This document shows positions 25,331 to 43,219 of a stretch of DNA of 64,000 nt, in pieces. Position 1 is the stretch's first letter. Each line of letters begins with the position of its first letter. Location: NCBI RefSeq assembly GCF_011745365.1, contig NW_024468915.1:2644653-2708652 (forward strand), read 5' to 3'. The DNA comes from Cryphonectria parasitica EP155. Taxonomy: Eukaryota; Ascomycota; Sordariomycetes; Diaporthales; Cryphonectriaceae. The notes beneath the pieces were generated by a model. It saw nothing but the letters and a program-made list of their open reading frames with translations, was not told the DNA's origin and did not search any database. The translations under genes were made by a program, and so were the position numbers.

Positions 25331-27584
25331 GTTATTGGTATAAATACTTAAACAATACTGAAAATGCTTCTCAAGCAACAGAAAAATCAAGCTAGAACGA
25401 ATGATCTAACGATTTATCGGAGTCTCTTATGAATAATAAACTCAAGAAACTTACAGAAAGGTTCTCCTTTGGTATTGGATGGAATAAGGAAACAATATAG
25501 ATTAAATATTTCGTTTATAGGATAAGATTAGAAGAGCTCTTCATCTGCATCTCCTTGCAGAATATTAAGATATAAGAAGATAAGAACTTTCGAATCAGCT
25601 CACTTCACAACCTATACTACAAACTAGCATAGATCTTCTACGCTTATTACAGCTGCTAAGCACATTTCTCGGAGAAGGTGCAATACGAATAGTTTTCTGT
25701 TAGAGAATCAGAACAAATCCTTCAGGCTATTGAAGAACAGAAACTTCGCTTCAGAGAAGTTCTTAACAAGTAATACTACAATGCATATATTGAGCTATCG
25801 AATAATTACTTTATATAATATATAGATAAAAAGATAAAGTAATAGCAATATAAGATAGCATTCTGTATAATTTACAGCAATAATAAGATTTGCAACTAGT
25901 ATTAACAGAAGAAAGATTAGAAATAATGATAATATAAGCAAAAGCAAGCTAAGAAGCTTGCTTAAGAAGCAGCGAAGCAAGCTTAGAAGAATAAGCAGTT
26001 CTTAATAAATCCAAAAGGATAGGATTGCTTGTAAAGAGATTGCAGATGATTAGACTGAAATAGTTCTTATATGAAGCTTCTAAAACAGATTACGCTTATA
26101 TTAAGTTTAACATATATATTCAAGAATACAAATACAGCATACTATTAAACAGTAGCGCTCAAGGAAACTTTATATCCTTATATATCATCAATTAAGCACA
26201 ACTATAATGAAGATGAAAGAGATGCTTATATACTCTTAATACTATAAAAGAATAATCTGTTGCATACAACCAAGAAATAATCAATAAGAAGACTAATTAT
26301 CTATCTATTTTAATCCAAGAATATATAATCAGAGCTTCCTTTGATATTACGGATATAGCATAGCATAAGCTGATTATAAAGCTTCTATAGCTTAAGAAGT
26401 ATAATTCTTAAATCAATTGAATTACTAGCTAGATCTTATGAGAATAAGCTATATTCAGAGAAATAGTTGCAATTAATAATGCAGAATCAAAGCTAGTGAT
26501 TGAAGAATACTCAGAAAAAGAAGCTTTACATAACTTTATACATATTTTCAAATCAGCAGAGCTAGCAGTTCAAGAAGAAGAACTTAGTAATAAGCAAATT
26601 CAAATAGTACTAGAATGCTAATAGATTAGCAAAACAATAGAAGCAAGACTCTTAGCAAGTTAATCCGCCCCGGAGCAACAAGAAAAAGCTTCAGAATGTG
26701 GATTGTAAAACTATACAAGAAAAATCTCGAAACCAAGCTCTCAAGCGCTTGGTTCAGCTCGGAGCGAATGCTCAAGGCCCTCAGAAACGCCATTAGAAAA
26801 GAAGCATGCTTAATAGTATCTACTGTTTCTCCAGATAGCAGAAATAGTATAGGAATCAGAATTAATACTTGCGAACATATTATAAGAATATTATAAGTTT
26901 AAGAAACTATTTCAGAAAAAATTGAATACAGGATTACTAGAATACAGCTTATACAATCACAAGATTCTGCTATAAGAAGGAAAATAGCTTAAATTCTTTC
27001 CTATTTATAAACTAAATAAAGTATAACTAGAAACACTTAAGAAGTATCTTGATAAGAATCTTAAGAAGAAATATATATAATCATTGCAATTACTAGCAGA
27101 ATACTCTATCTTGTTTATATCTAAGAAAAATAGCAAGCTTAAGCTATATATTAATTATAAGCAATTCAACGATATTACAATTAAGAACTAATATTTATTA
27201 TTACTTATTAAGGAACTATAAGATAGATTGCAAGAAGCATAGTAGTTCATAGTTCTGAATCTGAAAGAAGCTTATAATCTAATCAGAGTAAAGGAAGGAG
27301 AAGAATGGAAAACTGCTTTCAGAATACGCTATGAATACTACGAATATTTAATTATGCTCTTTGGTTTAATAAATACTTCAGCTTCGTTTCAGAAAATGAT
27401 CAATTATATTCTATGCAAGCATCTGAATCAGTTCATCATTGCTTATCTCAACAACATTCTTATTTACTTTCGAATATTGGAAGAATATAAGAAACATATG
27501 AAAATAGTGTTGCAAATGCTTCAAGATGCAAAACTCCTTGTAGAATCCGCAAAGAGCTACTTTCATATATAAAAGATCAACTAT
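25331..27584 (+). pseudogene. E1 protease/RT remnant, 5' part
   Basis: Degraded pol; the clearest part, 27100-27580, is an RT with LFGLINTSASFQKMINYILC and AYLNNILIYF, where the YxDD catalytic pair has become Asn-Asn by G-to-A change. Interrupted at 27584 by E3; the continuation is at 47520. Confidence 0.85.
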
Positions 27585-27903
27585 TGAATCAGAACTAGGG
27601 CGCTGTCGCCCTCGAAAGAAAAAGAGATAAACAGCTGCTGAAGCAATGAGCAAGAGCTCGTGCAACCCAAGCGTGCTTATGCAGATAAGAACAGCAAACT
27701 AAGGCCATACAAGCACAAGAACAGAGTGAAAAATCTATCTTAAACCTGTTCAAAGAATTCAAAATTGAAAAGAAGAGAAAGAATGCTTCATTATTGCTTA
27801 TAGCTAAAGAATTTGAAAAGTGAGTGATATTCTTTATATGTATGAGGACCCCTGATCTACTATACTTCACATTCCACGGACTACTATCCTAGCTACTATA
27901 ACA
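27585..27903 (-). repeat. E3 3' LTR
   Basis: 319 bp, same length as 47197-47515 and 42901-43219; RIP transitions throughout. Confidence 0.88.
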
Positions 27904-29104
27904 GTTTTCCTTCAGCAACTTTCTTCCAAAGTTGCAACAAGTCCAATGATATGCCAGATTTGATTAGAGAAAGATAAAGTAAAGAAATAAAGAATTCATT
28001 ACAAACTGCTAAAGAAAATACTGCAAACCAAATCATTCTTCCAATTCAACTCTTATACTTCTTCCTATTGCTTGAGCTATTATTCAAATCAATGCAGAAA
28101 TATTAGTATTTATTTTCAGTTTATTTGTAATACAAGCATAATCTGGATAGATTTTAATGCTAATCTCTTTTCTATTCTCATCTGCTCTCAAATTCTGCTT
28201 AAGCAGCAGCAGCAGCAGCAGTTCTCTCCTAATTCTGCATTCTCATTCAACAGATCCTTTTGCAATCCGCTTTATATATATCCATCTTGATAGCATGATT
28301 GAACTCTATTTAGTTCGGAGAACTTACTGAGAGCTTAATAGGATTAAAGCTATAAAGCTTATTTTATAGAAGCATACAAAGCTTCTAAGGTTTATTAGGA
28401 AAACTGAGAAGCATGATATTGCTGCTTCTCAATCTCTGATGCAATAGAGCTTCAGTAGCACATCCAAGCCTAGCTATTTGCTGCATTAACAAATTAATTA
28501 TTAGTTCTGAATCAACAGGCATTCCTTAAGATAAAGAGAAATAAGAATTAATAAAAGTTCCGAATGAGAATTAACTTAACTCTAAGCTAATACTACATCC
28601 TCTTAATAAATGCAAGATTGAGCTAGCTAGAGCTATGCTTTCTCGGAACTATTATCTTAACAGAACTAGGCTGAATGCTCTACTCGCTCTGAAATCCTTC
28701 AGAGCAAAAGCTAATATATTTCTTCTTATTCTATTAAGATCGCTTTCAATAGATAATTTAAGCAAGTCTGCAACTTCTTCTATAAAGAAGATAATATTCA
28801 GCTTATAGATTATATTTAGTACTCTATTAGCTTCTATTTATACAGCCTTATATTCTTGAAATGAGATACTTCTTCTTAATAGCTGATTAGGATATCGTAT
28901 ATAGTTATTATATCTCAGCTCATAGAAGAAAGCTTAGCAGTACAGGCTTATTATAGCTATCTCTATACCTCATTCTTCCACATTTTGTATAATCTTTCTA
29001 TGATTAAGATAGAGAGCTTGCTTCCAATCTGAATAGCTACTAGATGATTAGTAGAAATCAGTAGATTTCAGAATTTGAAAGCGAAATAGTTTGATTGCAT
29101 AAAG
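27904..29104. other. E3 internal DNA, degraded, one unidentified + strand frame
   Basis: AT-rich. If TAG/TAA are read as former Gln, the + strand from about 28310 to 29060 gives a long hydrophobic/Leu-rich frame that I cannot assign. A short (CAG)n tract lies near 28202-28220. See findings. Confidence 0.4.
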
Positions 29105-29109
29105 CAGAG

Positions 29110-29419
29110 TGTCAGGGCTTGTATGCGCACAAAGGAAATAGGTGGCCCTTGCGACCCCTGGTGGCGGTCCAGGGCTGCTGCGAGGGCTTCGCTCCGAAGC
29201 AGCGCTCTCGTACGATGCCGCGTGGCCATCAGGCCATTGTCAGCCCATCTAGTCCAGGCCAATTGTGTACATAAGGGAAAGGGGAACAACAGGTCCAGCA
29301 GCGAAAAAGAGGAGGAGGGAGATAGGTTCAGTAGTCCCTTTGAATGGAAGCATCAACAGAGCGGCTTGGGAGCAGCTCACACCCCTTCACCTCACTTGTG
29401 TGCCCTTTTTACCCTGACA
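29110..29419 (+). repeat. E5 5' LTR
   Basis: 310 bp, by eye identical to the 3' copy. Contains a TACATAAG element near 29267-29277 that could serve as TATA box. Confidence 0.97.
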
Positions 29420-29434
29420 AGTCTGAACCTTCTA
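29420..29434 (+). other. E5 candidate primer-binding site
   Basis: The bases after the 5' LTR do not begin with TGG as a tRNA-primed site would. CTGAACCT (29423-29430) is the exact complement of AGGTTCAG inside the LTR (29324-29331), compatible with self-priming as in Tf1/sushi-type chromoviruses. Only 8 bases match, so tentative. Confidence 0.35.
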
Positions 29435-29468
29435 CCCTTTCCCGGGAAGTGAGCCGTCGGGGGTGAGA

Positions 29469-30779
29469 ATGGCTCCGGTTACACGAAGCGGTAGCGCCGC
29501 TCCAGAGCGACAACCACAACGAGCCGGCGACTCCGACCCCTCACAGACCCTAAGCCAACTCCCCTCTCAGACCCTCCCTCCAAGCTCGAACCCAGGCCCA
29601 GCCCACGAGAACCCCTCGCTCGAGGCACCAGCAGATATGGCCGGGTTGCAACGCCAGGAACGCGAGCTCGATCGTCAGTTGGAAGAAGAGGAGATACGGC
29701 AGCGGCTGAGGAGCAAGCGCGCTCGCTTAACACTACTCCAGAGCGGCGACACCGGCCCGGAGCCCCGGCCAGCTGGCCTCAGCCCTCTCAGCACCCCTCC
29801 TGTGCCGACCCCTTCAGAGGCACCCTCGACAGCGCCTGCACAGCTATATCGCGGCTTGCCAGCCCTCATATACAAGGGGGGATCGTACATGGAGTTGAAG
29901 ACGTTCCTATACGACCTGCGGTACCATTTCGACATCTGCCGCTTGACCAATGAAGCGGATAAGGTGGGATATGCAGTGCGCTGCTTGAAAGACGATCCCA
30001 AGCGGGACTGGGTCAACTATGTCGCCCGCCAGGAGGAGGGACAGCGTGAGCCTGTCCCTATCACCTTTGGAGAACTCGAGTCCTTCCTGGAGAACCAGTT
30101 GGCCGATCCCACCACCCGCGCTGTCACTGCTGCAGCGACGCTTGCAAGCATCGCTCAAGGCAAGGGCGAATCAGTGATAAGCTTCGTGCGCCGGTACCAG
30201 GAGGCGGAGCTTGAGTCTCCCTATCCTGACACCGAGCAACATCGCATAACGGCTGTTCTCACACGCCTCAGACCAGAGATCCGTATCGCCATCAGTGCGC
30301 AGACGACGCTCCCGAGCAGCTGGAATGCCCTGATTGGCTTAGCACGACGTATCGAATCCGCTCAAGGGACGGTTACCAACCCTCAACCTGCTGTCAAGAC
30401 GCTCCTAAGCAGCAGCCCAGGAACTGCTACCCCCTCATATCGTGGCTGTTACAGCTGTGGCAAGCCAGGCCATATAGCAAGGGACTGCACAGCTCCGCGT
30501 GGTTCTCAGGCACTTCCCCTCACGGGCACTCAAGCTTCGTCGACGCGCCCTCAGACAGTTGATAACAACTTTGCCCGCTGTTACAACTGTCAGAAGACAG
30601 GCCATTTTGCTAACCTATGCCCGGAGCCTCGACGAAACGTCTGTTACACCTGCAATAAGCCAGGCCACTATAGTTCCAGTTGCCCAGAGGCAGAATGTCG
30701 GATTTGCAGGAAGAAGGGGCATACAGCAAACAGCTGCGAGCAGGCCAACAAGGTGGCGACAGCCACGCAACAGAGCTGA
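29469..30779 (+). CDS. gag: E5 Gag: capsid with four CCHC zinc knuckles
   Basis: 436 residues from ATG 29469. A Pro/Ser-rich N-terminus is followed by an acidic/basic coiled stretch (QRQERELDRQLEEEEIRQRL, about 60-80), a retrotransposon capsid region (YMELKTFLYDLRYHFDICRL through SWNALIGLARRIESAQG, about 140-300), and four CCHC knuckles near the C-terminus: CYSCGKPGHIARDC, CYNCQKTGHFANLC, CYTCNKPGHYSSSC and CRICRKKGHTANSC. Four knuckles is more than the usual one or two. Gag packages element RNA in virus-like particles. It ends at TGA 30777-30779, after which the same frame continues into pol. Confidence 0.95.
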   Translation: MAPVTRSGSAAPERQPQRAGDSDPSQTLSQLPSQTLPPSSNPGPAHENPSLEAPADMAGLQRQERELDRQLEEEEIRQRLRSKRARLTLLQSGDTGPEPRPAGLSPLSTPPVPTPSEAPSTAPAQLYRGLPALIYKGGSYMELKTFLYDLRYHFDICRLTNEADKVGYAVRCLKDDPKRDWVNYVARQEEGQREPVPITFGELESFLENQLADPTTRAVTAAATLASIAQGKGESVISFVRRYQEAELESPYPDTEQHRITAVLTRLRPEIRIAISAQTTLPSSWNALIGLARRIESAQGTVTNPQPAVKTLLSSSPGTATPSYRGCYSCGKPGHIARDCTAPRGSQALPLTGTQASSTRPQTVDNNFARCYNCQKTGHFANLCPEPRRNVCYTCNKPGHYSSSCPEAECRICRKKGHTANSCEQANKVATATQQS

Positions 30780-33700
30780 GGAGACGCCGAGCGGAAGCCT
30801 CGCCAGCTCACCGTCCACGCGAGGCTGTCGCTCGGAGACAAAAGGAAGCACACGTATGGGTTGGTCGACTCGGGGGCAGAGGAGAACCTGATCGACCGCC
30901 GCTTGGCCGAGGCTCTGGCGCAGAACCAACCTTTTGAAGCATGCCCCAGGCTCGTCTCAATTAACCAGGGAGCTATCATCACATACGGCAGCTGCTCTAT
31001 CGATGTGAAGGTCACAGATAGCCTAGGAACATCCAGGAAGCAGCGCCATCGCTTCGTGGTAGCAGATATTGGCCAGCCCAGCCTGATCCTGGGGTTCCCG
31101 TGGCTTGAGGTCGTCAACCCGGTAATACGATGGGATATGAGGCAATGGAGGTTTCCCCTCCAGCGCTCCCAGATTCGGCTCTGCACTATGGCGAAAGGGC
31201 TTGAGGGAGCGAGGGTTGCCTTTGCGGCATATTACTACCCAAGCCCACCAGACCTACCCCTCGAGGCTAAGCCAGAAGACGCAGCGCCAGAGCTGCGCCT
31301 GCCCCCTGAGTACCGCGACTTCGTCGACCTATGCATGGAGGAGGCATCAAAGTCGCTCGCACCCCACACTGATATCGACCATCGCATCGAGCTCGAAGAG
31401 GGGGCAAGACCGCCCTGGGGGCCCTTGTACGCCCTCTCCGCGGCCGAACTAGAAGTGCTCAGGAAATACTTGGAGGAGATGCTAACCAGGGGATGGATTC
31501 GACCCTCGACCAGCCCTGCTGGCGCACCTATACTGTTCGTGCCAAAGAAAGGAGGCGAGCTGCGCCTCTGCGTGGACTACAGGGCGCTGAATCGGATTAC
31601 ACGCAAGGACCGCACCCCGTTGCCTTTGATTGCCGAGATCCTCGATCGACTGAGCCATGCACAAATCTATACCAAGCTCGACCTTAAGGATGCGTACCAT
31701 CGGCTCCGAATCCGTGAAGGAGACGAGTGGAAGACCGCCTTCCGTACGAAATACGGCCATTTCGAGTACTGTGTTCTGCCCTTTGGCCTCACCAACGCCC
31801 CGGCCACGTTCCAGGCATACATCAACAAGGCGCTGGCGGGCCTGGTGGATGTGATCTGCATCGTCTACCTGGATGATATCCTGATCTACAGTGATGATGC
31901 CAAGCAGCATACAAGCCACGTTCGAGAGGTCTTGGAGCGGCTACGGCAATGGGGGCTATACCTCAACCTGAGGAAGTGCGAGTTCAACATACGACAGGTG
32001 GAATTCCTGGGCTTTGTGGTGTCCCCAGAAGGAATCAGCATGGACAAGGGGCGCGTCGCAGCTATTGCGCAGTGGCCGCTCCCGCGCACCGTCCGCGATA
32101 TTCAGATATTTCTTGGGTTCACTGGGTTCTACCGTCGATTTATACGGAACTACTCCAAGGTCGCTACACCATTGACCGACCTTTTGCGAGGCGGCGGCAC
32201 AGGCGTAGTCGCGCTCTCGAACCGCGCCCGAGTAGCTTTCAAGACCCTGATCATGCTCTTTACAACAGCCCCATTGCTACGCCACTACGATGCTGCATTA
32301 CCAACGAGGGTTGAAACGGATGCTTCTGCTTTCGCTATAGGAGCTGTGCTGGCCCAGCTGTTTCAAGGCCGCTGGCATCCAATTGCCTTTCGTTCAAAGA
32401 AGCTCTCTCCAACAGAAACACGGTATGGCGTGGGGGATATCGAGCTGTTAGCTATTGTGGACGCTGTATCAAACTGGCAGCATTATTTGTTGTATCTGCC
32501 TGAGCCTGTACTCGTCCTCACGGACCATCTCAACTTGCAGTACTGGGAGACTAAACAGAAGCTATCTGCCCGCCAGTTGCGCTGGCTGGACGATCTCAGC
32601 GTGTATAACCTCATCATCCAGTACCGCCCCGGCAAGTCCAACCCGGCTGATGGGTTGTCCAGGCGGCCAGATCACCAGGGGGGAGAGGGAGCTGAGCAGG
32701 AGCTGCGAAGCCCCAGCGATTTCGTCACGATGGAGAATCTGGAGGATCAGAGAGGACCTTGTGTTGGTCGTATTCGAAGAGTGAGAGTGGAGCAAGCAGC
32801 AGACCTGAGTGTCTCCTGTTTTCGAGTGTGCGCCCTTCGCTATTCGAGCGAGGGCGCGGAGTTTGAGCAGACAGCAGACCTGAGTGTCTCCTGTTTTCGA
32901 GAGTGCGCCCTTCGCTATTCGAGCGAGGGCGCAGAGTTGAAGCGGAGTGTCCGCTTGGCAACTGATGTTGCTTGGGTGTCGGGTCGCGAACCGACCACCC
33001 TTCCGCGCCTAGCGGTGGAGCGAAGCGTGGCAACGGCGCCGGAGCAGCTTGCAGAGCCAATGAGGGCGCATCTGCTACGACTGCAACAAGAAGACGTTTT
33101 TGTTCAGACGGAAGCTTGGCGCAAGAGGCGAACACGCAGCTCTACAGCCGGTGTGGAGCTATGGCAAGTCATCGAGGGCTTGCTATGCTTCAGGGGACGT
33201 GTATTTGTGCCAAACCATCCATCAACTCGCAAGGAGCTTTTGGAGGCGTACCATGATGATCCAACAGCCGGCCATCTCGGCATAGCTAAGTCCACTAAGA
33301 TGATTTCTCGTTACTACTATTGGGATGCGTTAGCTAAGGATATGAAGAAGCATATTAACACGTGTGCAGTGTGCCAGCGGATAAAAACGAGGAAACAACG
33401 CCCATACGGCCTGCTCAGTCCCTTACCACCAGCAACTCGCCCATGGGCCGAGATATCAATGGACTTTATCACCGGTCTGCCCGGGTCCATCGGTCTCTAC
33501 AATAAGGCTTACGATGCTATCCTGGTGATCGTCGACAGATACTCGAAGTACGCCCTGTACATTCCGACAACAACACGGCTCACAAGCAGCGGCCTAGCAG
33601 ATATCATGCTGTGGCACGTGTATCAGTTCTACGGCATTCCTGAGGGCATTGTGTCAGACAGAGGGAGCCTCTTTACAAGCCACTTCTGGACTGACTTCTG

Positions 33701-34511
33701 CTTCCACCTGGGGACCAAGCGGCGCCTGAGCACTGCGTTTCACCCCCAAACAGATGGACAGACCGAGCGGCAGAACCAGAACCTCGAACAATACCTCCGC
33801 GCTTATTGCAGCCTTTCTCAAGCGGATTGGGCGCGGCGCCTACCCCTTGCACAGGCAGCGTATAACAGCGCAGACCATAGCGGGACAGGATCATCACCTG
33901 CTATGTTGCTCTACGGATTCCAACCAACAAAACCGACAGATATCAACACGCAGCGCCCAAGCTACGTCCCCAAGGTCTCAGAGCGGCTCGAAGACCTCGC
34001 CAAGGCTCGTGAGGAGGCTCAGGAAAGCCTCAACCATGCAAGACAAGCATACACCAGGTGGTACAACAAACGCCATACCGATAAAAGATTCTCCCTTGGC
34101 GACCTCGTCCTCGTCTCAGCCAGGCATTTACGCCAAAAAGGCGTCAACAATAAACTGGCAAACAAATACCTTGGCCCTTTTCGAGTGCTGGAGATCGTGG
34201 GAGCGCATGGACTGGCGTACAAGCTCGAATTGCCAGCGAAATACAAGGTCCACAATGTCTTTCCAATCGTGGCCCTGAAGAACTTCAATAAACGAGATGG
34301 AGAAGAGCTCGAGGCGCACCCTGACATCGACCTCGAGGAAGAGGCGCGTTGGGAGGTGGAGGCTATTCTGGCACACCGAGGGCCACCTAGGAACCGCCAA
34401 TTCCTCATACATTGGAAGGGATATAGCAGCGATGAGGATTCATGGGAACCACGGGCATTTATTGACGACGGACCATTGATCAAAGAATACGAAGCACGGT
34501 TGAAGCGGTAA
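30780..34511 (+). CDS. pol: E5 Pol: protease, RT, RNase H, integrase, chromodomain
   Basis: 1,243 codons open from the codon after the gag UGA, in the same frame; no separate ATG is needed near the protease, so UGA readthrough is the simplest expression route. Order: aspartic protease (LVDSGAEENLID), RT (LKDAYHRLRI, PFGLTNAPATFQ, YLDDILIYSDD), RNase H (ETDASAFAIGAVL, GDIELLAIVDA, LTDHLNLQYW), integrase zinc-binding HHCC (HDDPTAGHLG...CAVCQRIK) and DDE core (MDFITGLP, GIVSDRGSLFTS, TAFHPQTDGQTERQN), then a C-terminal chromodomain (WEVEAILAHRG, FLIHWKGYSSDEDSWEP). All catalytic residues are present. A 75 bp tandem duplication lies between RNase H and integrase. The chromodomain probably directs integration to heterochromatin, fitting its landing site in RIPed repeats. 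Confidence 0.97.
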   Translation, partial: GDAERKPRQLTVHARLSLGDKRKHTYGLVDSGAEENLIDRRLAEALAQNQPFEACPRLVSINQGAIITYGSCSIDVKVTDSLGTSRKQRHRFVVADIGQPSLILGFPWLEVVNPVIRWDMRQWRFPLQRSQIRLCTMAKGLEGARVAFAAYYYPSPPDLPLEAKPEDAAPELRLPPEYRDFVDLCMEEASKSLAPHTDIDHRIELEEGARPPWGPLYALSAAELEVLRKYLEEMLTRGWIRPSTSPAGAPILFVPKKGGELRLCVDYRALNRITRKDRTPLPLIAEILDRLSHAQIYTKLDLKDAYHRLRIREGDEWKTAFRTKYGHFEYCVLPFGLTNAPATFQAYINKALAGLVDVICIVYLDDILIYSDDAKQHTSHVREVLERLRQWGLYLNLRKCEFNIRQVEFLGFVVSPEGISMDKGRVAAIAQWPLPRTVRDIQIFLGFTGFYRRFIRNYSKVATPLTDLLRGGGTGVVALSNRARVAFKTLIMLFTTAPLLRHYDAALPTRVETDASAFAIGAVLAQLFQGRWHPIAFRSKKLSPTETRYGVGDIELLAIVDAVSNWQHYLLYLPEPVLVLTDHLNLQYWETKQKLSARQLRWLDDLSVYNLIIQYRPGKSNPADGLSRRPDHQGGEGAEQELRSPSDFVTMENLEDQRGPCVGRIRRVRVEQAADLSVSCFRVCALRYSSEGAEFEQTADLSVSCFRECALRYSSEGAELKRSVRLATDVAWVSGREPTTLPRLAVERSVATAPEQLAEPMRAHLLRLQQEDVFVQTEAWRKRRTRSSTAGVELWQVIEGLLCFRGRVFVPNHPSTRKELLEAYHDDPTAGHLGIAKSTKMISRYYYWDALAKDMKKHINTCAVCQRIKTRKQRPYGLLSPLPPATRPWAEISMDFITGLPGSIGLYNKAYDAILVIVDRYSKYALYIPTTTRLTSSGLADIMLWHVYQFYGIPEGIVSDRGSLFTSHFWTDFCFHLGTKRRLSTAFHPQTDGQTERQNQNLEQYLRAYCSLSQADWARRLPLAQAAYNSADHSGTGSSPAMLLYGFQPTKPTDINTQRPSYVPKVSERLEDLAKAREEAQESLNHARQAYTRWYNKRHTDKRFSLGDLVLVSARHLRQKGVNNKLANKYLGPFRVLEIVGAHGLAYKLELPAKYKVHNVFPIVALKNFNKRDGEELEAHPDIDLEEEARWEVEAILAHRGPPRNRQFLIHWKGYSSDEDSWEPRAFIDDGPLIKEYEARLKR
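32790..32939 (+). repeat. 75 bp tandem duplication inside E5 pol
   Basis: Two copies (32790-32864, 32865-32939), nearly identical, each adding 25 residues that include ADLSVSCFR.CALRYSSEGA. It keeps the frame and sits in the linker between RNase H and integrase, where length change is likely tolerated. Confidence 0.9.
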
Positions 34512-34673
34512 CAACGCAGCGCGGAAGCTGCTCGGTCTTTGATTGGAAAACTAAAAACCCTTATATGGCCCACCCACCCGGGGAGTTAGCGACGCCCCTG
34601 CGTCGTGGCAATCAGTGCCAGTTATTTCCCACGCTGTAAAAGCGCGCCCACCCACCCAGGGTTTTTAAAGAGG

Positions 34674-35602
34674 TTACCCTCCCTCTTCGGGAGCCGCCTC
34701 AGAAGGCTTGCGAGCTGCCTCGGCCAGCGTCTCCAGAGCGCTGACACCGCGCCGAAGCAGCGACATCAACTCCCCGCTCATAACAGGGGCAGGAGACGCG
34801 CCGACCACCGGCGCAGGAGCAGCGCCCACAGAGCGCACCAGCCGGAGGACACCCTGCAAGTCCTCGTCGGTCGGCTCCCGACCAAAGGAGCAGGCATTGT
34901 CCAGGGCCAAACCCGCCTCGTAAGGAAGCTATAGTGGCTTGTGAGCAGCGCGAAAGACAAGAGGGAGCAGGGGTAATACTACTCACGGGCTGGCAGGAGT
35001 GGTTGCCGCGAGCACACCGAAAACAACGGGCACCGGAGCCTATGACGAATCAATATGAGGATTTGTAAGGCAAGGAAACTGGCGCACCTGACTGGTCCCG
35101 GCACCGGACCTCAGGCTCCTGGATGCGGCGACGCACGCACCCCTGGCACCAGCCGGCGGGGGGACGCACCGCACCCGGTCCCTCGGGGACCTTCTTCCTC
35201 TTGACGGCCTAGCAACGTCAGCGCGGCGCTGTATACACGATATATATGAGTACTCACGGAGGCCGTGGGAGTGACGGGAGGCGGGGCCTCCGGGGCAGGA
35301 GTCTCGGGAGACTCGAGGGGGGGCGAGAGAGAGGGCGAGGGCGAGGGAGAGGCCCTCTTGCGCTTCTTGCTGGCGGGGGCCTTGCGGCCACCACGCCGAC
35401 CGCCGCGGCGGCCACGAGAGGGAGAGGACGCGGGAGCAGCGGGGGCGCCCGAGGGCAGAGGGTGGCGAGGAGGGGGCACCGCGTCAACAGCGCCGGAGGA
35501 GGCATTGCCAGCCTCCGAGGCCTCAGGGGCGATCTGACCCTCAGAGACCTCAGGGGCCGGCGCAGCCTCCCCAGACGCGTTGACAGCAGTAAAAGGAGAC
35601 AT
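34674..35602 (-). CDS. E5 antisense spliced gene: basic Cys-cluster protein
   Basis: On the strand opposite gag-pol, between the pol stop and the 3' LTR. Exons 35602-35258, 35208-35088, 35039-34987, 34928-34674; introns of 49, 48 and 58 bp, GT..AG, the first with a CTGAC branch-like site; phases 0, 1, 0 all fit and give 257 residues. Residues 1-115 are Ala/Pro/Ser-rich with a basic patch (SRGRRGGRRGGRK, SKKRKR) that looks like a nuclear localisation signal. Residues 136-171 hold six Cys as C-x2-C-x11-C-x9-C-x2-C-x6-C, probably a zinc finger, split over exons 2-3. Residues 174-257 look helical and end in EEGG. A non-random open frame with intron interruption is hard to get by chance, so I infer a real antisense gene. 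Function unknown: nucleic-acid binding or regulation of the element is plausible. Confidence 0.75.
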
Positions 35603-35654
35603 CTGCGACGAATCAGCTTCCACGCGATGCCTCAGAGGATAGGGATACACGTAC

Positions 35655-35663
35655 CGTGCTGTT

Positions 35664-35695
<32 letters not shown>

Positions 35696-35703
35696 TGTGG
35701 TGG
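35655..35703 (-). other. Probable upstream (5') exon of the antisense gene, CAG/CAA-rich
   Basis: Upstream of the antisense ATG, a 49-base CAG/CAA-repeat segment is bracketed by a pyrimidine-rich acceptor (CCCTTTCCTCAG before 35703) and a donor GTACGT at 35654; the 52 bp intron ends CAG at 35603. A further donor GTAAGT at 35936 may belong to a first exon near the 3' LTR. The phase does not keep a polyGln frame joined to the ATG exon, so this may be 5' UTR. Confidence 0.45.
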
Positions 35704-36078
35704 CTGAGGAAAGGGAAAAACAGAAAAGAGAGGGGGGTTCAGGCGCGAGGGCGAAATAGGGGGCAACAGTGCCCCACTAGCGCGCGCACCCCAGGCAACC
35801 CTGTTGTCTGGCCCTAGAAGCTATTCCGAGATCGCGGTAGCATGGATGACCGCGCCAAGCTGCGCAGTCTTCGTGACCACGCCGCGTCTGCGCTGCGCCA
35901 GCGCTGGGGCAACCTTCACGACATCACATGACTTACCGGCGGAGGAAAACTTGGCCCTCTAGGGCGAGGCACCCCAACAACAAGGACCAACTGACGAGAG
36001 GACTATTGACAAGTATGAAGGGACCTGTGGGTCTGCGTGGGAGCAGCTCGGGCGCGTAGTTCCTGGGGACAGGAACCT

Positions 36079-36091
36079 GGAAGAGGGAGGA
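36079..36091 (+). other. E5 polypurine tract
   Basis: GGAAGAGGGAGGA ends a few bases before the 3' LTR, the expected place of the plus-strand primer. Confidence 0.75.
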
Positions 36092-36094
36092 TTC

Positions 36095-36404
36095 TGTCAG
36101 GGCTTGTATGCGCACAAAGGAAATAGGTGGCCCTTGCGACCCCTGGTGGCGGTCCAGGGCTGCTGCGAGGGCTTCGCTCCGAAGCAGCGCTCTCGTACGA
36201 TGCCGCGTGGCCATCAGGCCATTGTCAGCCCATCTAGTCCAGGCCAATTGTGTACATAAGGGAAAGGGGAACAACAGGTCCAGCAGCGAAAAAGAGGAGG
36301 AGGGAGATAGGTTCAGTAGTCCCTTTGAATGGAAGCATCAACAGAGCGGCTTGGGAGCAGCTCACACCCCTTCACCTCACTTGTGTGCCCTTTTTACCCT
36401 GACA
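36095..36404 (+). repeat. E5 3' LTR
   Basis: 310 bp partner of 29110-29419, followed by CAGAG. Confidence 0.97.
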
Positions 36405-36409
36405 CAGAG

Positions 36410-39400
36410 CTGCATTCGAATTATTATCTAGCAGCATAGTTGGAATATTCTCAAAATCCCAATTCTAATTAGCTCTAGCATTTCTGAGCTAACTGTTTAG
36501 ATAGTACTTGCTTATATAAGCTAGTAGAATATTGCTAGATTTGTATATAGCAATATAAAATCCTTTTTCAGTTTTTATATCAAGCTAAGATAAAATATAA
36601 GCTAAAATTGCTATATTAACTAAGAGAAGAACTCATAAGCACTTCTATCTAGCTTTATATCTGAGCAAATCCTGCTTATTAAGAATATCAGAAGAGCTAA
36701 ATGAATAAGCTATTAATAGAATACAAAGACATTCTATTAAGAATACATCTTATTAGTTATACTAAGCATAATAATAAAAAGCAGCTATAGCATGCTACAA
36801 ACTAATATCTTAAGAAACTCCTGTATTTAAAAATCCAATCAGATTATAAATATTAAGAAGATATCTAAAAGAATTAGTACTAAAGATTGTAAGCAAGTAC
36901 AATTTGCAAGGAGATAATTCTGGGAAGTACTTCTTAATAAGTTCTGCTGCTAGATGATTTTCTTTATTTCTTAGACTGAAGTAGAGCGAATAACTCTTAA
37001 TTATTTCAGTTGAATATAGCGCTCTGGGAAAGATAGTTCGAAAGCAGTAAGTCTTGGTTATCCAGTTCTCTCAGCTATGCTGGATAGATAGGAATAGAGA
37101 GTACTTGAATTCAGCTATTGCTGCTAAGTTGAAAAGAAAGTGAAAAGAGAAGAACAGCTTTATTGAAAGATAAGCAATTGTAAGAAAGATTTGCAAAGAT
37201 ATAAAGTTAAGAAACTGAAAAGATATTAACTGAGAAAGAAAGATAGAGAAGAATACAGCTTCAGCTTAAGAATCTATTAAGGAAGATAATATTATATAAG
37301 CAAAGCAGTTAATAATTTGCTCTAATGTTAGTATATAGATTTGAAGTAGTATTAATAAGAAAGAAAAAGAATGTATATATGCTTAAGAAAAATAGTTGTA
37401 AAGAAATTAAAAGAGAAAGAAGAATAGCTAGCTGCAAGTATAAATAGAATAGCTAATTTATCTTATCTAGCAACTATTTAAATAATTTATTGCTTTCCAT
37501 TTGTTACAAAGCAAACAGCTTTACTCTTAATTAGATAAAAGCTATTTAGCAATAAACTGAATAGAAAGTATAATAACTCAGTTAGATATATTTATTATCT
37601 ATTACTATCTCATCAATCTTCAGCAAACTATTCAATAATCTCTTCTTCAGTTCATCTTGCTTTTCAATTCATTCTTTATATAATAACTTCTCCTTCTATT
37701 AATCTTCCCTTGCTTAGCTCTACAATATACTCAAGATATCTCGAATTATTATCGATGCTGTTTTCTCTTTGCAGATAAATACTGCTTCTTAAGAGATTAA
37801 TAAGATCTGAATCTAGTTTTCTTCTTCAATTCCTCCTTCTCAAAGCAGCAACTATTACTAGCTTAAGAATATTCATATTAACTTCCTTAATATTACAAAC
37901 TTTAATACTATTAAGAGAAATCTTAGCTTAATATATATTTCTTGAGATATTCAAAGCAATATTATATTTTGAAATAACTTATTATTAAGCTCTAGCTTTA
38001 CTGCTTATTTTGCAAAACTGAATAATAAGAATTCTATTAAACTGAATTCTATTATAATATATAAAGCTAGTTAGAAGCTCTTTAGCAAGTATCTTATCTG
38101 CATCTTCTTCTGCTCTAAGCAAGTAAATTCCCTTCTTATTCAGTTTTATAATTAGCATAATCTAGTTTCTTGCAATTACTGCTTCTATTAATATACTACT
38201 GCTTGCATGCTTATTCAGAAGCAGTAGATTAATATCAATTAGCTTTTCTTAGAATGCATCTTAATAAAGAGCTTCTTCAATAAGAAGTATAGCAACTGCA
38301 TTTATTATACAAAGTCTGAATATAATTATACTAAAAACTTCTTTTATATTAAAGAGTATAATATACAAATAAGATTTCTATTCTAATATTCTTAATTAGA
38401 TTTAAGTATATACTAATTATTATTCTTCTTGCAGTATTAGCATTCATTTTACTAATTCAGCTCTTAATATATAATCAAGATAGATTCTCAAATCAATTCT
38501 AATACTAACATTAAGCGTATTATTAAAGCTTAATATAAGCTTATACAGAATAAAGATATTATATATAATCAAATTAAATAAATTCCTCTTATACTAAGGA
38601 AATAGTATCTATAGAATATTATAAATCTTATAATTAATTATAGTTGCAATACTTAAAGAGATTACTGCTAACTTTATCTATATAGATTAGCAAGAAGAGT
38701 ATTGCTTCTTCTGCTTCTAAGAAGGAAGTATCTGAATCTGAATAAGCAGCTTTATAATCTATATCTTGCAGCAAGAATAAAAGCAAGAGCAAAGCTATAG
38801 TAGAATCTTATATCAAGAAATAAGCTAAGTTTGTTTAATTTCAAGATTCTTTCTCTATTTTTAATAATAATTCTTCAGCGAATAATACAAATAATATAGA
38901 TCTGAACAGAATAAGAAGAGAGCTATCAGATAATATTTATAAATATTCTGATAATAAGAATAATATATAAAAATAAGAAGTTTCCATAGATTGCAGTATT
39001 TCTTTAGTGCTCTGCATTTTTCATACATTATATTCCAATATATTACAATTTTTGAATAATAAAAATAGCTTCAGAGCTAATCAATATGCTCTATACTGAA
39101 TACTTTGAAATTTTTAGATAGGTTTACAGTATTCTGTAGCAAGTAGTAGCAAACAATACTTTATCTCTTCTTTCTTAGCAAAATATATAAGATGAAATAG
39201 AAAAGATGAAAAGAAAACGTATTTTGCAAACAAAAAGGAAATATGAATAGAAAGAAATCAACCTTTCCTATAAGCTAGAAACGCTGATTTAGTTGGAATT
39301 AGTATAAACATCCTACTTCTATCTGCTTTCTCCTGTTCTTGCTTCTTCTTCTCTACTGCTTATATAAAATATTCATTATTACTAACTCCATTTCCATTCT

Positions 39401-40100
39401 CAGCATCATTATCCGCTTTAGTTACTAGATTAATAGTTTCTGAATTAGAACTAGTTTAGCTAGATATAGAGTTGTACTCAATAATATCTGAAATTCAGAA
39501 TATAGCATTATCGCTTAAATCTGCTTTCTGAATTTCAAGAATATTATTATTTAGTTCCTCTTGCTAGAAAGCTCTTATTGAATCCAGCTTTTCTGCTAAT
39601 AATTAGCTAGATTGAAGCTTAATATTTTCTTCTCAGAGCATAAGCATCTCAGATTTTCAAATGCTATTCATATTTCATATAAACTTTTTGAAATTAATAG
39701 CTAAATATATGCTTTTTAATAGAACTCTATCTGTAGTCTTGAGCTTATAAGCATGTTTATCTAGAATCTAAGCAATCAGATATAAATTCTTTTACTTATA
39801 AGAGATTTTAGCATTATGCAAATAGCTTATTTTCCGAATATAATTATAAATAAGCACAAGATTTCCAATATTCAGTTGAGATTTTCATATTAGACTCTGC
39901 ATTTAATTTTTAGCTGCAATCTTTTAATAATATATCTAAACAGCTTCAATTGCTTTCTATATATCATCTTCCTTAGCTGCAATTATTCTTAACTGCATTT
40001 CAAATGCTTTCTGAGAGAATTGGTTTTCGATTTATATAAGAACTCTTTATATTAGGATTTCAGTTTCAATTGAAATAAGCAGCTCTCAACTGAAAATCAA
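36410..40100. other. E3 internal DNA, AT-rich, no recognisable product
   Basis: Very AT-rich, dense in TAA/TAG in all frames. Between the E5 insertion and the E3 integrase remnant. Presumably the 3' part of E3 or a further unrecognised insertion. Confidence 0.4.
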
Positions 40101-42850
40101 ATAGAAGGAGCTATATTCATATAACTAGCAGATTGTAATTCTTTTAGCAAAGAGTATAAATCTTAAGTACTGCTTCCATCTTCAGAGTTAAGTATTAGCT
40201 AGCTTAGCAAGAGTATTTGCTAAGAAAAAATGATTAGCTTCTACTTATTCTTGAGTATAGAAATTATAACTAAAGATCTGAATAAGCAGAATCCTAAGAG
40301 CTCTGATGATCTTAGCTATCTCAGCTTTGTTTTCTAATTCTTCATTAATAGTAATTTTGAAAAAGCATTCGAATATAAGAATAATCTCTTTCAAAATAAA
40401 CTTTCTTATTTCTGCAGCTATAGCTTTCTTAAGAGATCTTATAAGCATATAGCTAGTTAGATTATAGCAAGCCTTTATAAAATATCTATAATCGCTATTC
40501 TCAGCTATATATTGAATATTAATACTGATTCTTATAAAGAATTAACTTGGAAGGATTGGAATCACTCCTTTCTTTCACATCTTTAGATCAAACTTTGCAT
40601 ACTTCTCGCAATCCGAGATAGTATTAGCTACATCTATTCAGAAATCTTTCCAATAGTAAAGTTGCTTGATACAAGCTACTATAGAGTCTCAATCTCAATA
40701 TCCAAACTTAGCATAACATTCTCTAATAATTTAGTAACAAAGATCAGAATTATCTACTACTTATTAGCATAAAAGTTTTATATTAGTGCAGCGCTACAGA
40801 GCTTAATTAAATACTTGATACTTTAATATCTCTACTATAAAGTTCTTGCAATTTCTCTTGAAGAGTTTTAATAGAATAATCCTATAATATAAGAACTCTG
40901 CATACTATTTCAACTATTCCATCTACTAAAGAATTGAATTTAGCAGTAATACTAAGTTAGCTCTATTTAAATTTATATTATTAAGCTAAGTATTATATCA
41001 GTTCTTAACATTGCTATCTTTATTTTTCTTAAATAGCATTGAGTATGAAGATTGAGAAAGAGCATTAGCTACAGAATTCTTTAATCCGGGAATATATTTG
41101 ATAATAAAATCAAATATCTTGATTACTGCTATTCATCTATTCAGAAGAGCACTGAATATATTATTTATTCCTTTATTGAATTAATCTACTAGAATGCAAG
41201 CATCGGTTTCCAGAATAAAATAGCAACTATAGAAATATTACTAAAGAGACTATAGAGCATAAAGAACAGTATAATACTCTCTCTTAGTAGCATTATATTT
41301 CTATACTGCAACTATTCAGATTCTGCTAACGAAATATGCTAGCTTTCGTTTATTCTCTACTATCTGCATTAGTACAGCTTTTCTAGCTTAATAAGCTTGC
41401 ATTTATTATAAGAACAATCTTTCCAGCATTAATGCTATAATCAATTAAAATAATAACTGAATAAGATATAAGTATTCAAATAAGTATAGCAATAGCTTCT
41501 TTCTATTCCTTTTTCTATTTCTATACAATATCTTTCTTGAGAAGATTATAGAATAATCAAGCAATAATTGCAAAGTTCTAAATCCAAGCTGCATAATAAA
41601 TAACTAATCCAATGAAAGAGCAAATATTTTTAATATTCTTACATTCTATCCAAGCTAGAAGCTTTTCCATCTTTCTATTCTAAGGTTATTATCTGCTAGA
41701 ACTAATAATATAACTAATTATATCAACTTTTACTTAGCATTATTCTAACTTGAATACTGAGATTGTAGCTCCAGCTAGCTCTATATTTATAAGAATCTTA
41801 TTAAGATTTCTGATATGCTTAGCAATATATCTATGCACTTCGGAAAAGCTCGGAATCTCTTCATTCTTATAGATTATTGTAAGACTATAAACAGAAATAT
41901 TATTAAGAAAAAGCTAGCATATATAAGAAATAAGATTATATAGAAGTTTAATCATTATCTTTATAAACTAAGCAACAGAGTTAGTAGCACTTTAAAATAA
42001 AGTATATATTCTGAATAAGCTTAAAAGCATTGAAAAGATTATTATATCTCTGCTGTTAGAATGTAGTTATACTTAGTTATATTTGGAAAAGAAGTTGAGC
42101 AGTAAAAGAATCTTGCATATAGCGAACTTCTCCAAGAATTCATCTGAAGCAAGCAGCATGAAAGCATTCTTGAAGCTATGCTTATTATACTTTTGAGCAT
42201 TATTAATCAAATATAAGCTATTATTCTTTTTGATAATCAGAAACTAATTATTTCTATATAATGTATAGCTTTTCTTAATAATCTTCCGTTTGATATATTA
42301 TTTCAGAAGCTCTATTAATTTTAGCTTAAGAGCATTAGAGATTGAAATATGCCTTACTTAAAAGATCTTATAGAATATAGTTCTGATTTCTTATAAGAAA
42401 GCTACTTTCTCAATAATCTTTCCAATCTTAGTAAAATTCTATGCAAGAGCTTTAATCCTATTTCTTAATATATATTTGAATATTTTTTTCTCAGCTTTAG
42501 AAAATCCTTTATAGTTTTTTTCTTGCATAGCAGCTCATTAATCAGATCTCAGATGCTAATCAGAATTCAGATTGCTGAACTTGGATTCAATTTACTTATT
42601 ATACTTGGTAAGCTTTGTAAATCGTTGAGCTTATCTTATCTTCTTAATCTTAGCAAGCTTTCACTCAATCATCCCTTCCAGTACTGAACTATCAGGCTAG
42701 GAATCATTAATTAGCTTAATCTTCTTGTTTTTAAGCTTGTAAAGAGTATTGATTAAGCTTAAAATATCTTTTCTTTCCTTTTCTATACAACGTAGCTAGC
42801 ATGAATAGTGCTAGCTGCTATGCATTCTATACAAGCAAGACTCTTGAATC
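40101..42850 (-). pseudogene. E3 pol remnant: RT, RNase H, integrase
   Basis: Read on the minus strand with stops ignored: RT at about 42300-41820 (AQKYNKHSF.., LASDEFLEKFA, ..GATNS-like block, then FLNNISVYS where catalytic Asp pairs became Asn-Asn), RNase H near 41330-41095 (LETDA), and the integrase zinc-binding region near 40750-40560 (QLYYWKDF.., DCEKYAKFDLKM). A Ty3/Gypsy pol, different from families A and E5. Destroyed by RIP. Confidence 0.7.
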
Positions 42851-42900
42851 GCTTCTTTCTTATTTATTATAAAGCAATTCTTCTTCAACTTCCTTTCTAT

Positions 42901-43219
42901 TGAACCAGAACTAGGGCGCCGTCGCCCTCGAAAGAAAAAGGGACAAACAGCTGCCGAAGCAATGGGCAAGGGCTCATGCAACCCAAGCGTGCCTGTACAG
43001 ATGAGGACAGCAAACTAAGGCCACACGGGCACAAGAACAGGGTGAAAAACCTGTCTTAGACCTGTCCAAAGGGTTCAAAATTGAAAAGAAGAGAAAGAAT
43101 GCTTCATTGTTGCTTATAGCTAAAGAATTTGAAAAGTGGGTGGTATCCTTTATATGTATGAGGACCCTTGACCCACTGTACTCCACGTCCCACGGACTAC
43201 CACCCTGGCCACCACAACA
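42901..43219 (-). repeat. Solo LTR of family B
   Basis: 319 bp copy of the E3 LTR, flanked by CTAT at 42897-42900 and 43220-43223. It is visibly more GC-rich and less mutated than either E3 LTR. It lies inside E3, so it is probably a later insertion that lost its internal part by LTR recombination. Confidence 0.8.

Follow-up and report, generated by a model that had tools for sequence, protein, structure and literature searches.

Within the 64,000-nucleotide window analysed here, a reading frame predicted to be spliced runs antisense to gag and pol inside an LTR retrotransposon, and this raises the question of whether it is a gene of the element and what its product might do there. We consider it highly probable that the frame is a real protein-coding gene. 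Its structure, its presence wherever the end of pol is kept, the retention of its introns, the suppression of amino-acid change and two alleles that differ within the gene and hardly outside it were all observed. The best explanation, in which we have moderate confidence, is that a chromodomain Ty3-like element has here an accessory gene that truly codes for a protein, probably a nuclear zinc-binding regulator.

The host element and its antisense gene

The host is an intact chromodomain Ty3-like element spanning positions 29110-36404 (the window was located once in a genome of 43.8 Mb and 17 contigs). Its two LTRs (310 bp each, 29110-29419 and 36095-36404, plus strand) match at 100%, with the ends TGTCAGGG and CCCTGACA, and the TSD is CAGAG (5 bp, 5' copy at 29105-29109). 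The gag ORF (29469-30779, plus strand) encodes zinc knuckles (Pfam zf-CCHC, 70.8 bits) and pol (30780-34511, plus strand) encodes reverse transcriptase (RVT_1, 133.6 bits), RNase H, integrase and a chromodomain (Chromo, 49.6 bits), the set that characterises a chromovirus; the Pfam match for protease in pol was weak and under the cut-off. Both ORFs share a frame, with one TGA (30777-30779) between them, which suggests that translation of this fungal chromodomain element reads through the stop codon from gag to pol. Between RNase H and integrase, pol has a 75-bp tandem duplication (32790-32939, 93% identical), also seen in other copies. A perfect palindrome (GTTCCTG-GGGA-CAGGAAC, 36059-36076) adjoins the polypurine tract, is identical in an older fossil of the element (L038) and represents a possible operator or stem.

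In the interval between pol and the 3' LTR, four coding exons on the minus strand join to a product of 257 amino acids. Exon 1 (35258-35602) has the ATG and the basic patches RGRRGGRRGGRK and KKRKR, and is of biased composition and low complexity; exon 2 (35088-35208) encodes Cys 136, 139 and 151 and a KRKK patch, exon 3 (34987-35039) Cys 161, 164 and 171, and exon 4 (34674-34928), which has the stop, three predicted helices (single-sequence fold of exon 4 alone, mean pLDDT 70.6, pTM 0.47). They are separated by intron 1 (49 nt, 35209-35257, GTGAGT..TAG, the acceptor aligned in L038), intron 2 (48 nt, 35040-35087, GTGCGC..TAG, the region of greatest divergence between the two alleles described below) and intron 3 (58 nt, 34929-34986, GTGAGT..TAG), likewise on the minus strand. 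The four exons, three short introns, 257 residues and antisense position after pol had been proposed in a preliminary description, the coordinates and product of which proved exact; its six-Cys cluster was found at the same positions, with a seventh Cys at 186 in addition.

Immediately upstream of the start codon, a 5'-UTR intron (35603-35654, minus strand) is predicted to be spliced. Its CAG end abuts the ATG, and its GTACGT donor and GCTGATT branch-like site recur in L038, which thus points to this intron as an addition to the preliminary gene model. The adjoining stretch (35655-35760, minus strand) is a putative 5' UTR with (CAA/CAG)n and a CT-rich core promoter, of which the CT-rich stretch and the CAA leader are also present in L038. 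We set aside a coding exon further 5' (poly-Gln or the like), as inspection by eye revealed no in-frame ATG upstream, and the stretch was taken as leader; an extra upstream intron of 233 nt (35936-35704) is possible yet unsupported.

The antisense protein gave no Pfam family at E<=10, in searches whose HMMER filters discard most weak matches. No homologue was found in the protein collection; a control protein from a second retrotransposon family likewise had none there, and the collection may be poor in such fungal proteins. A scan of viral contigs matched 39 stretches, with zero relatives by tblastn. The spacing of the six Cys, C-x2-C-x11-C-x9-C-x2-C-x6-C, fits no tested family. A Zn2Cys6 cluster (PF00172, with the spacing C-x2-C-x6-C) was rejected, as there was no Pfam match and the first gap is x11, not x6. 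Kinship with DUF3716 (PF12511), which we had suspected from the Cys layout, was also rejected: there was no Pfam match above 22 bits, and the profile score was no better than that of shuffles. Aligned by hhalign to a DUF3716 profile from the same genome, the Cys region scored 8.7, a value that shuffled sequences attained in 187 of 200 cases with Cys fixed and in 137 of 200 with full shuffling; one row of the profile set (L046) was a poor pick.

Copies, introns and two alleles

The gene belongs to the element family. Searching the whole genome at the DNA level (40 of 71 candidates scored, hence a lower bound) gave at least 43 matches. Of these, 27 are near full length, two are shorter relics and 12 are short hits to the CAG/CAA stretch; one further copy is split over two pieces. 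Three places, the window included, are nearly identical in the gene region (100% for two of them and 99.7% for the other). Queried with the 3' end of pol, the genome produced 29 matches (29 of 29 candidates scored), 27 of which reach the pol end or nearly so; the other two are short pieces that stop well short of it. By coordinates, the antisense gene follows pol in all 27 (at one place with 0.5 kb more in between), which supports the earlier proposal of an accessory gene, here one that belongs to the element family.

For comparison of copies we fetched 20 loci of 9 kb each. The order pol-gene-LTR was found in 18 of them, L020 being without a detected 3' LTR and L023 without pol. Introns 1-3 are full length in 20 of 20 copies and the 5'-UTR intron is complete in 19, the alignment of L017 stopping inside it. 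On the strand of the genomic RNA the antisense introns appear as CT..AC and are therefore not spliced out, so that they pass through retrotransposition, as the preliminary description had claimed.

With its introns, its own leader and a promoter-like stretch, the gene looks as a host gene would, and might be a captured one, carried by the element as a passenger. We regard this as improbable: the whole-genome protein search (all 91 candidates scored, 85 matches at E<=1) yielded no separate host paralogue, all matches, compared by eye, being at element copies or relic pieces, and the gene is present throughout the family and under selection.

In 18 of the 20 fetched loci, differences from the window in gag and pol, where present, are overwhelmingly C>T or G>A (in the pol of L014, 872 of 874), an excess in old copies that is due to RIP or a similar process; L009 is identical to the window, and the pol of L010 has 22 differences in 3,735 sites. 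Plain dN/dS among copies, proposed beforehand as a check, was rejected because these differences of the older copies record RIP and not selection.

L038 is, judged from its sequence, an older, decayed copy, with a GC content of 0.52; over 585 aligned columns it is about 66% identical to the gene region, and a fragment of its LTR is 78.5% identical over 107 bp. Aligned by eye, it retains the block on the side of the polypurine tract, the CT-rich stretch, the CAA/CAG leader, the ATG with the intron CAG abutting it, the acceptor of intron 1 and both ends of intron 2. A GTGAGT lies near the donor of intron 1, outside base-for-base alignment; part of the Cys region is lost and the exons, again by eye, are no longer in phase.

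Seven of the 20 loci (L012, L013, L018, L019, L022, L025 and L028, hereafter type B) share differences that RIP cannot make, namely transversions, T>C and A>G; L022 contains two element copies, its own being type B. RIP-type changes were dropped first, so the sites counted are a subset of the true differences, and an allele site was required in at least 55% of type B copies and in zero type A copies. There are 52 such sites among 929 in the antisense gene and 1 among 478 upstream of it, vs none in 5,502 elsewhere (LTR 0/301, gag 0/1,309, pol 0/3,734, pol-gene spacer 0/158). The allele tract runs from 34704 to 35468, inside the gene span. Two diverged antisense genes are thus carried by elements with otherwise matching gag, pol and LTR, as if the gene alone had been swapped via recombination; the simplest cause would be template switching with a relative not encountered in the genome examined.

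RIP-proof divergence amounts to 16 of 155 sites in introns 1-3 vs 37 of 774 in exons. The excess comes mainly from intron 2 (11/48), and introns 1 and 3 (3/49 and 2/58) are not more diverged than exon 2 (11/121). Conservation of splice sites between copies had also been put forward as a test of the gene. In type B, GT and AG are kept at the donor and acceptor of intron 1 in 6/7 and 6/7 copies, of intron 2 in 4/7 and 5/7, of intron 3 in 6/7 and 7/7, and of the 5'-UTR intron in 7/7 and 7/7; the stop is retained in 7/7, and the start codon is ATG in 3/7 and ATA in 4/7. The departures are RIP-type or silent, the losses of splice sites and ATG being RIP-like G>A changes. The intron 2 donor, GTGCGC in the window, reads GTAAGC in 3/7, GTGAGC in 1/7 and AT forms expected from RIP in 3/7, which is consistent with a donor kept through the divergence of the alleles.

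The RIP-proof allele differences also allow selection on the frame to be assessed. We took 37 coding differences, RIP-type excluded, each present in at least four of the seven type B copies (one of them also in type A copies), and scored them singly on window codons. Seventeen are nonsynonymous vs 26.1 expected (SD 2.5; P=0.0004 from 5,000 random placements) and none creates a stop. Transitions (7 nonsynonymous, 12 synonymous) give a rate ratio of 0.29 (P=0.007), and transversions (10 and 8) one of 0.41 (P=0.055), alone short of significance. Nonsynonymous changes make up 7 of 13 in exon 1, 6 of 14 in exons 2-3 and 4 of 10 in exon 4, and the Cys codons are unchanged among the 37, save for a silent change at Cys 164. 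Every coding-exon indel between the alleles measures 6 nt and lies inside a GAGGGC repeat, where slippage by 6 nt is natural. As a control, one of the three sense frames likewise scores 17 of 37, probably through third positions shared with the antisense frame. Amino-acid change thus appears suppressed in the antisense frame, a purifying pattern observed in a single pair of allele lineages; where plain dN/dS is confounded, the RIP-proof version of the check gave fewer amino-acid changes than expected.

These results bear on two readings without a functional protein. A leftward transcript could act as RNA alone by pairing with the genomic RNA, the frame being incidental in GC-rich DNA. The GC content of the gene region is indeed 0.64, chance antisense open frames reach 187 codons opposite gag-pol, and antisense transcripts of transposons have been reported from a mildew fungus (PMC10648671). 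Such a role would leave the avoidance of amino-acid changes, the 6-nt steps of the coding indels and the RIP-type or silent nature of the type B splice-site departures out of account, and the sense frames across the gene contain 6, 7 and 4 stops, with 130 codons as the longest open run; we rate it as very unlikely. That frame and splice sites arose by chance in GC-rich DNA, with no gene at all, is more improbable still and close to negligible. A low-complexity exon 1 and empty homologue and domain searches are what chance would leave, against which stand the outcome of the selection test, the start and 5'-UTR intron ends kept in L038 and the occurrence of the gene in all 27 places that reach the pol end.

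Another alternative retains the protein and gives it a different target: the product would counter host defence (RIP, heterochromatin or RNAi silencing) and not act on the element's own transcription. RIP is severe in this genome, old copies differing nearly always by C>T or G>A, and would exert strong pressure for a countermeasure; and, as might be expected in an arms race, no other part of the element has a second allele of such divergence. Set against this, 18 of 20 fetched loci are heavily RIP-mutated despite the gene, the allele pattern is purifying and not diversifying, and the sequence indicates no silencing target. Defence against the host therefore seems to us an unlikely role, and action on the element itself is preferred.

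Proposed role and comparison with known antisense genes

We lean towards a nuclear regulator of its own element, which the features predicted from the sequence make somewhat probable. An internal promoter at about 35704-35760 would drive a leftward mRNA with a CAA-rich leader; its four introns, one of them in the 5' UTR, would be spliced to give a protein with a basic low-complexity N-terminus, a six-Cys zinc cluster and C-terminal helices. The protein would enter the nucleus via KKRKR and KRKK and bind zinc through the six Cys, and the C-terminal helices may pair, as the exon 4 fold suggests. It would then most probably bind nucleic acid or chromatin and, by acting on the chromatin or transcription of the element itself, tune its expression or integration. 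By analogy, a self-regulating role of this kind is known for HBZ of HTLV-1 and has been suggested for antisense genes of plants.

LTR elements with antisense accessory genes are known in plants and in one fungal group. The preliminary description named plant examples only, a background now corrected by brtn, the antisense gene of Boty-like (BcGypsy1) elements in Botrytis cinerea and Sclerotinia (Zhao et al. 2011, as described in PMC8365987, PMC7264820 and PMC4227169). According to these papers, brtn also belongs to fungal Ty3-like elements with gag, zinc knuckle, RT, IN and chromodomain, and is a single antisense gene between pol and the 3' LTR. The window gene, compared with brtn by such description only, is built of four coding exons, with a predicted intron in the 5' UTR, and its product has a six-Cys cluster. 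It thus adds a fungal case to the already published antisense genes in fungal chromodomain elements; our search of the literature on fungal LTR elements, with most subscription papers outside it, gave no further antisense protein gene.

Among plant aORFs, gene23 of maize Grande has its own promoter and encodes a nuclear protein, as stated in PMC7264820 and PMC11963269; Grande gene23, RIRE2, Retand with TRP28 and PvRetro13 are likewise antisense and in the interval between pol and the 3' LTR. The plant elements differ in that Retand is not a chromovirus, and in having TRP28 or SMC-like domains vs the six-Cys cluster here. HBZ of HTLV-1 is a nuclear protein coded antisense in a retroelement, as described in PMC11963269. 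Its likeness to the window protein would be one of mode of working only, and no homology is claimed. The domain of HBZ presumably differs from that of the window protein.

New in the present fungal case are evidence for selection at the protein level that is unconfounded by RIP, two natural alleles within elements that otherwise match, three copies in one genome that are identical or nearly so, and the same general antisense design in a second, unrelated family. The role of antisense genes for a retroelement is now directly testable, and an antisense protein apparently kept by selection suggests that retroelements bring their own accessory proteins.

A second Ty3-like family with an antisense gene

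The chromodomain element is inserted into an unrelated Ty3-like relic (27582-43219, minus strand), the LTRs of which (27582-27903 and 42898-43219) are 87.6% identical; the relic, split by 29110-36404, is RIP-mutated. It contains the RIP-mutated relic of an antisense gene of DUF3716 type (37736-38970, plus strand), with exons 37736-38368, 38435-38620 and 38686-38970 mapped from L051, a member of this second family with open frames. The pol of L051 encodes RT, RNase H and integrase, gave no match to a chromodomain, and is followed by an antisense gene of 367 residues in three exons, read from splice sites, with a basic patch and a DUF3716 domain (23.9 bits, cut-off 22) that has six Cys. The gene region of L051 occurs at six identical places and at least 34 diverged ones (40 of 92 candidates scored, a lower bound). 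Our full-text literature search for DUF3716 found no paper.

The order of parts in L051 is unusual: after the 5' LTR come pol (RT-RH-IN), the DUF3716 gene in antisense, a 667-residue sense frame and the 3' LTR. The sense frame had zero Pfam matches, and no match to gag or protease was found in the fetched part, outside which the 5' end of L051 lies. Two further DUF3716 loci, L044 and L046 (C2:1994633 and C3:3012746), have about 2.3 kb in common at 92% identity, and DUF3716 genes may therefore ride on further repeats of the same genome.

The L051 and window genes are alike in genome, place, orientation, predicted introns, six-Cys domain and basic patch, and differ in that their sequences have no detectable relation and that L051 lacks a chromodomain match and has another gene order. 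As far as these predicted features go, the same design (antisense, intron-bearing, six Cys, basic) is present twice in unrelated elements. A wider, tentative reading, which we would put at rather less than even, is that an antisense, intron-bearing Cys-cluster nuclear regulator has been acquired repeatedly by unrelated fungal Ty3-like lineages, as a module moving between elements and forming an HBZ-like layer of control. On this reading the window would hold two such cases, one nested in the other, and in one of them the antisense gene comes in two diverged versions in elements whose gag, pol and LTR match.

To the left of the transposon block, 1183-22872 contains frames that, read by eye, are like those of a gene cluster. 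We take them to be polyketide synthase, citrate-synthase-like, transporter and methylcitrate-dehydratase-like frames, with a HET-like frame beside the transposon block, and the region presumably resembles an alkylcitrate or maleidride-type gene cluster.
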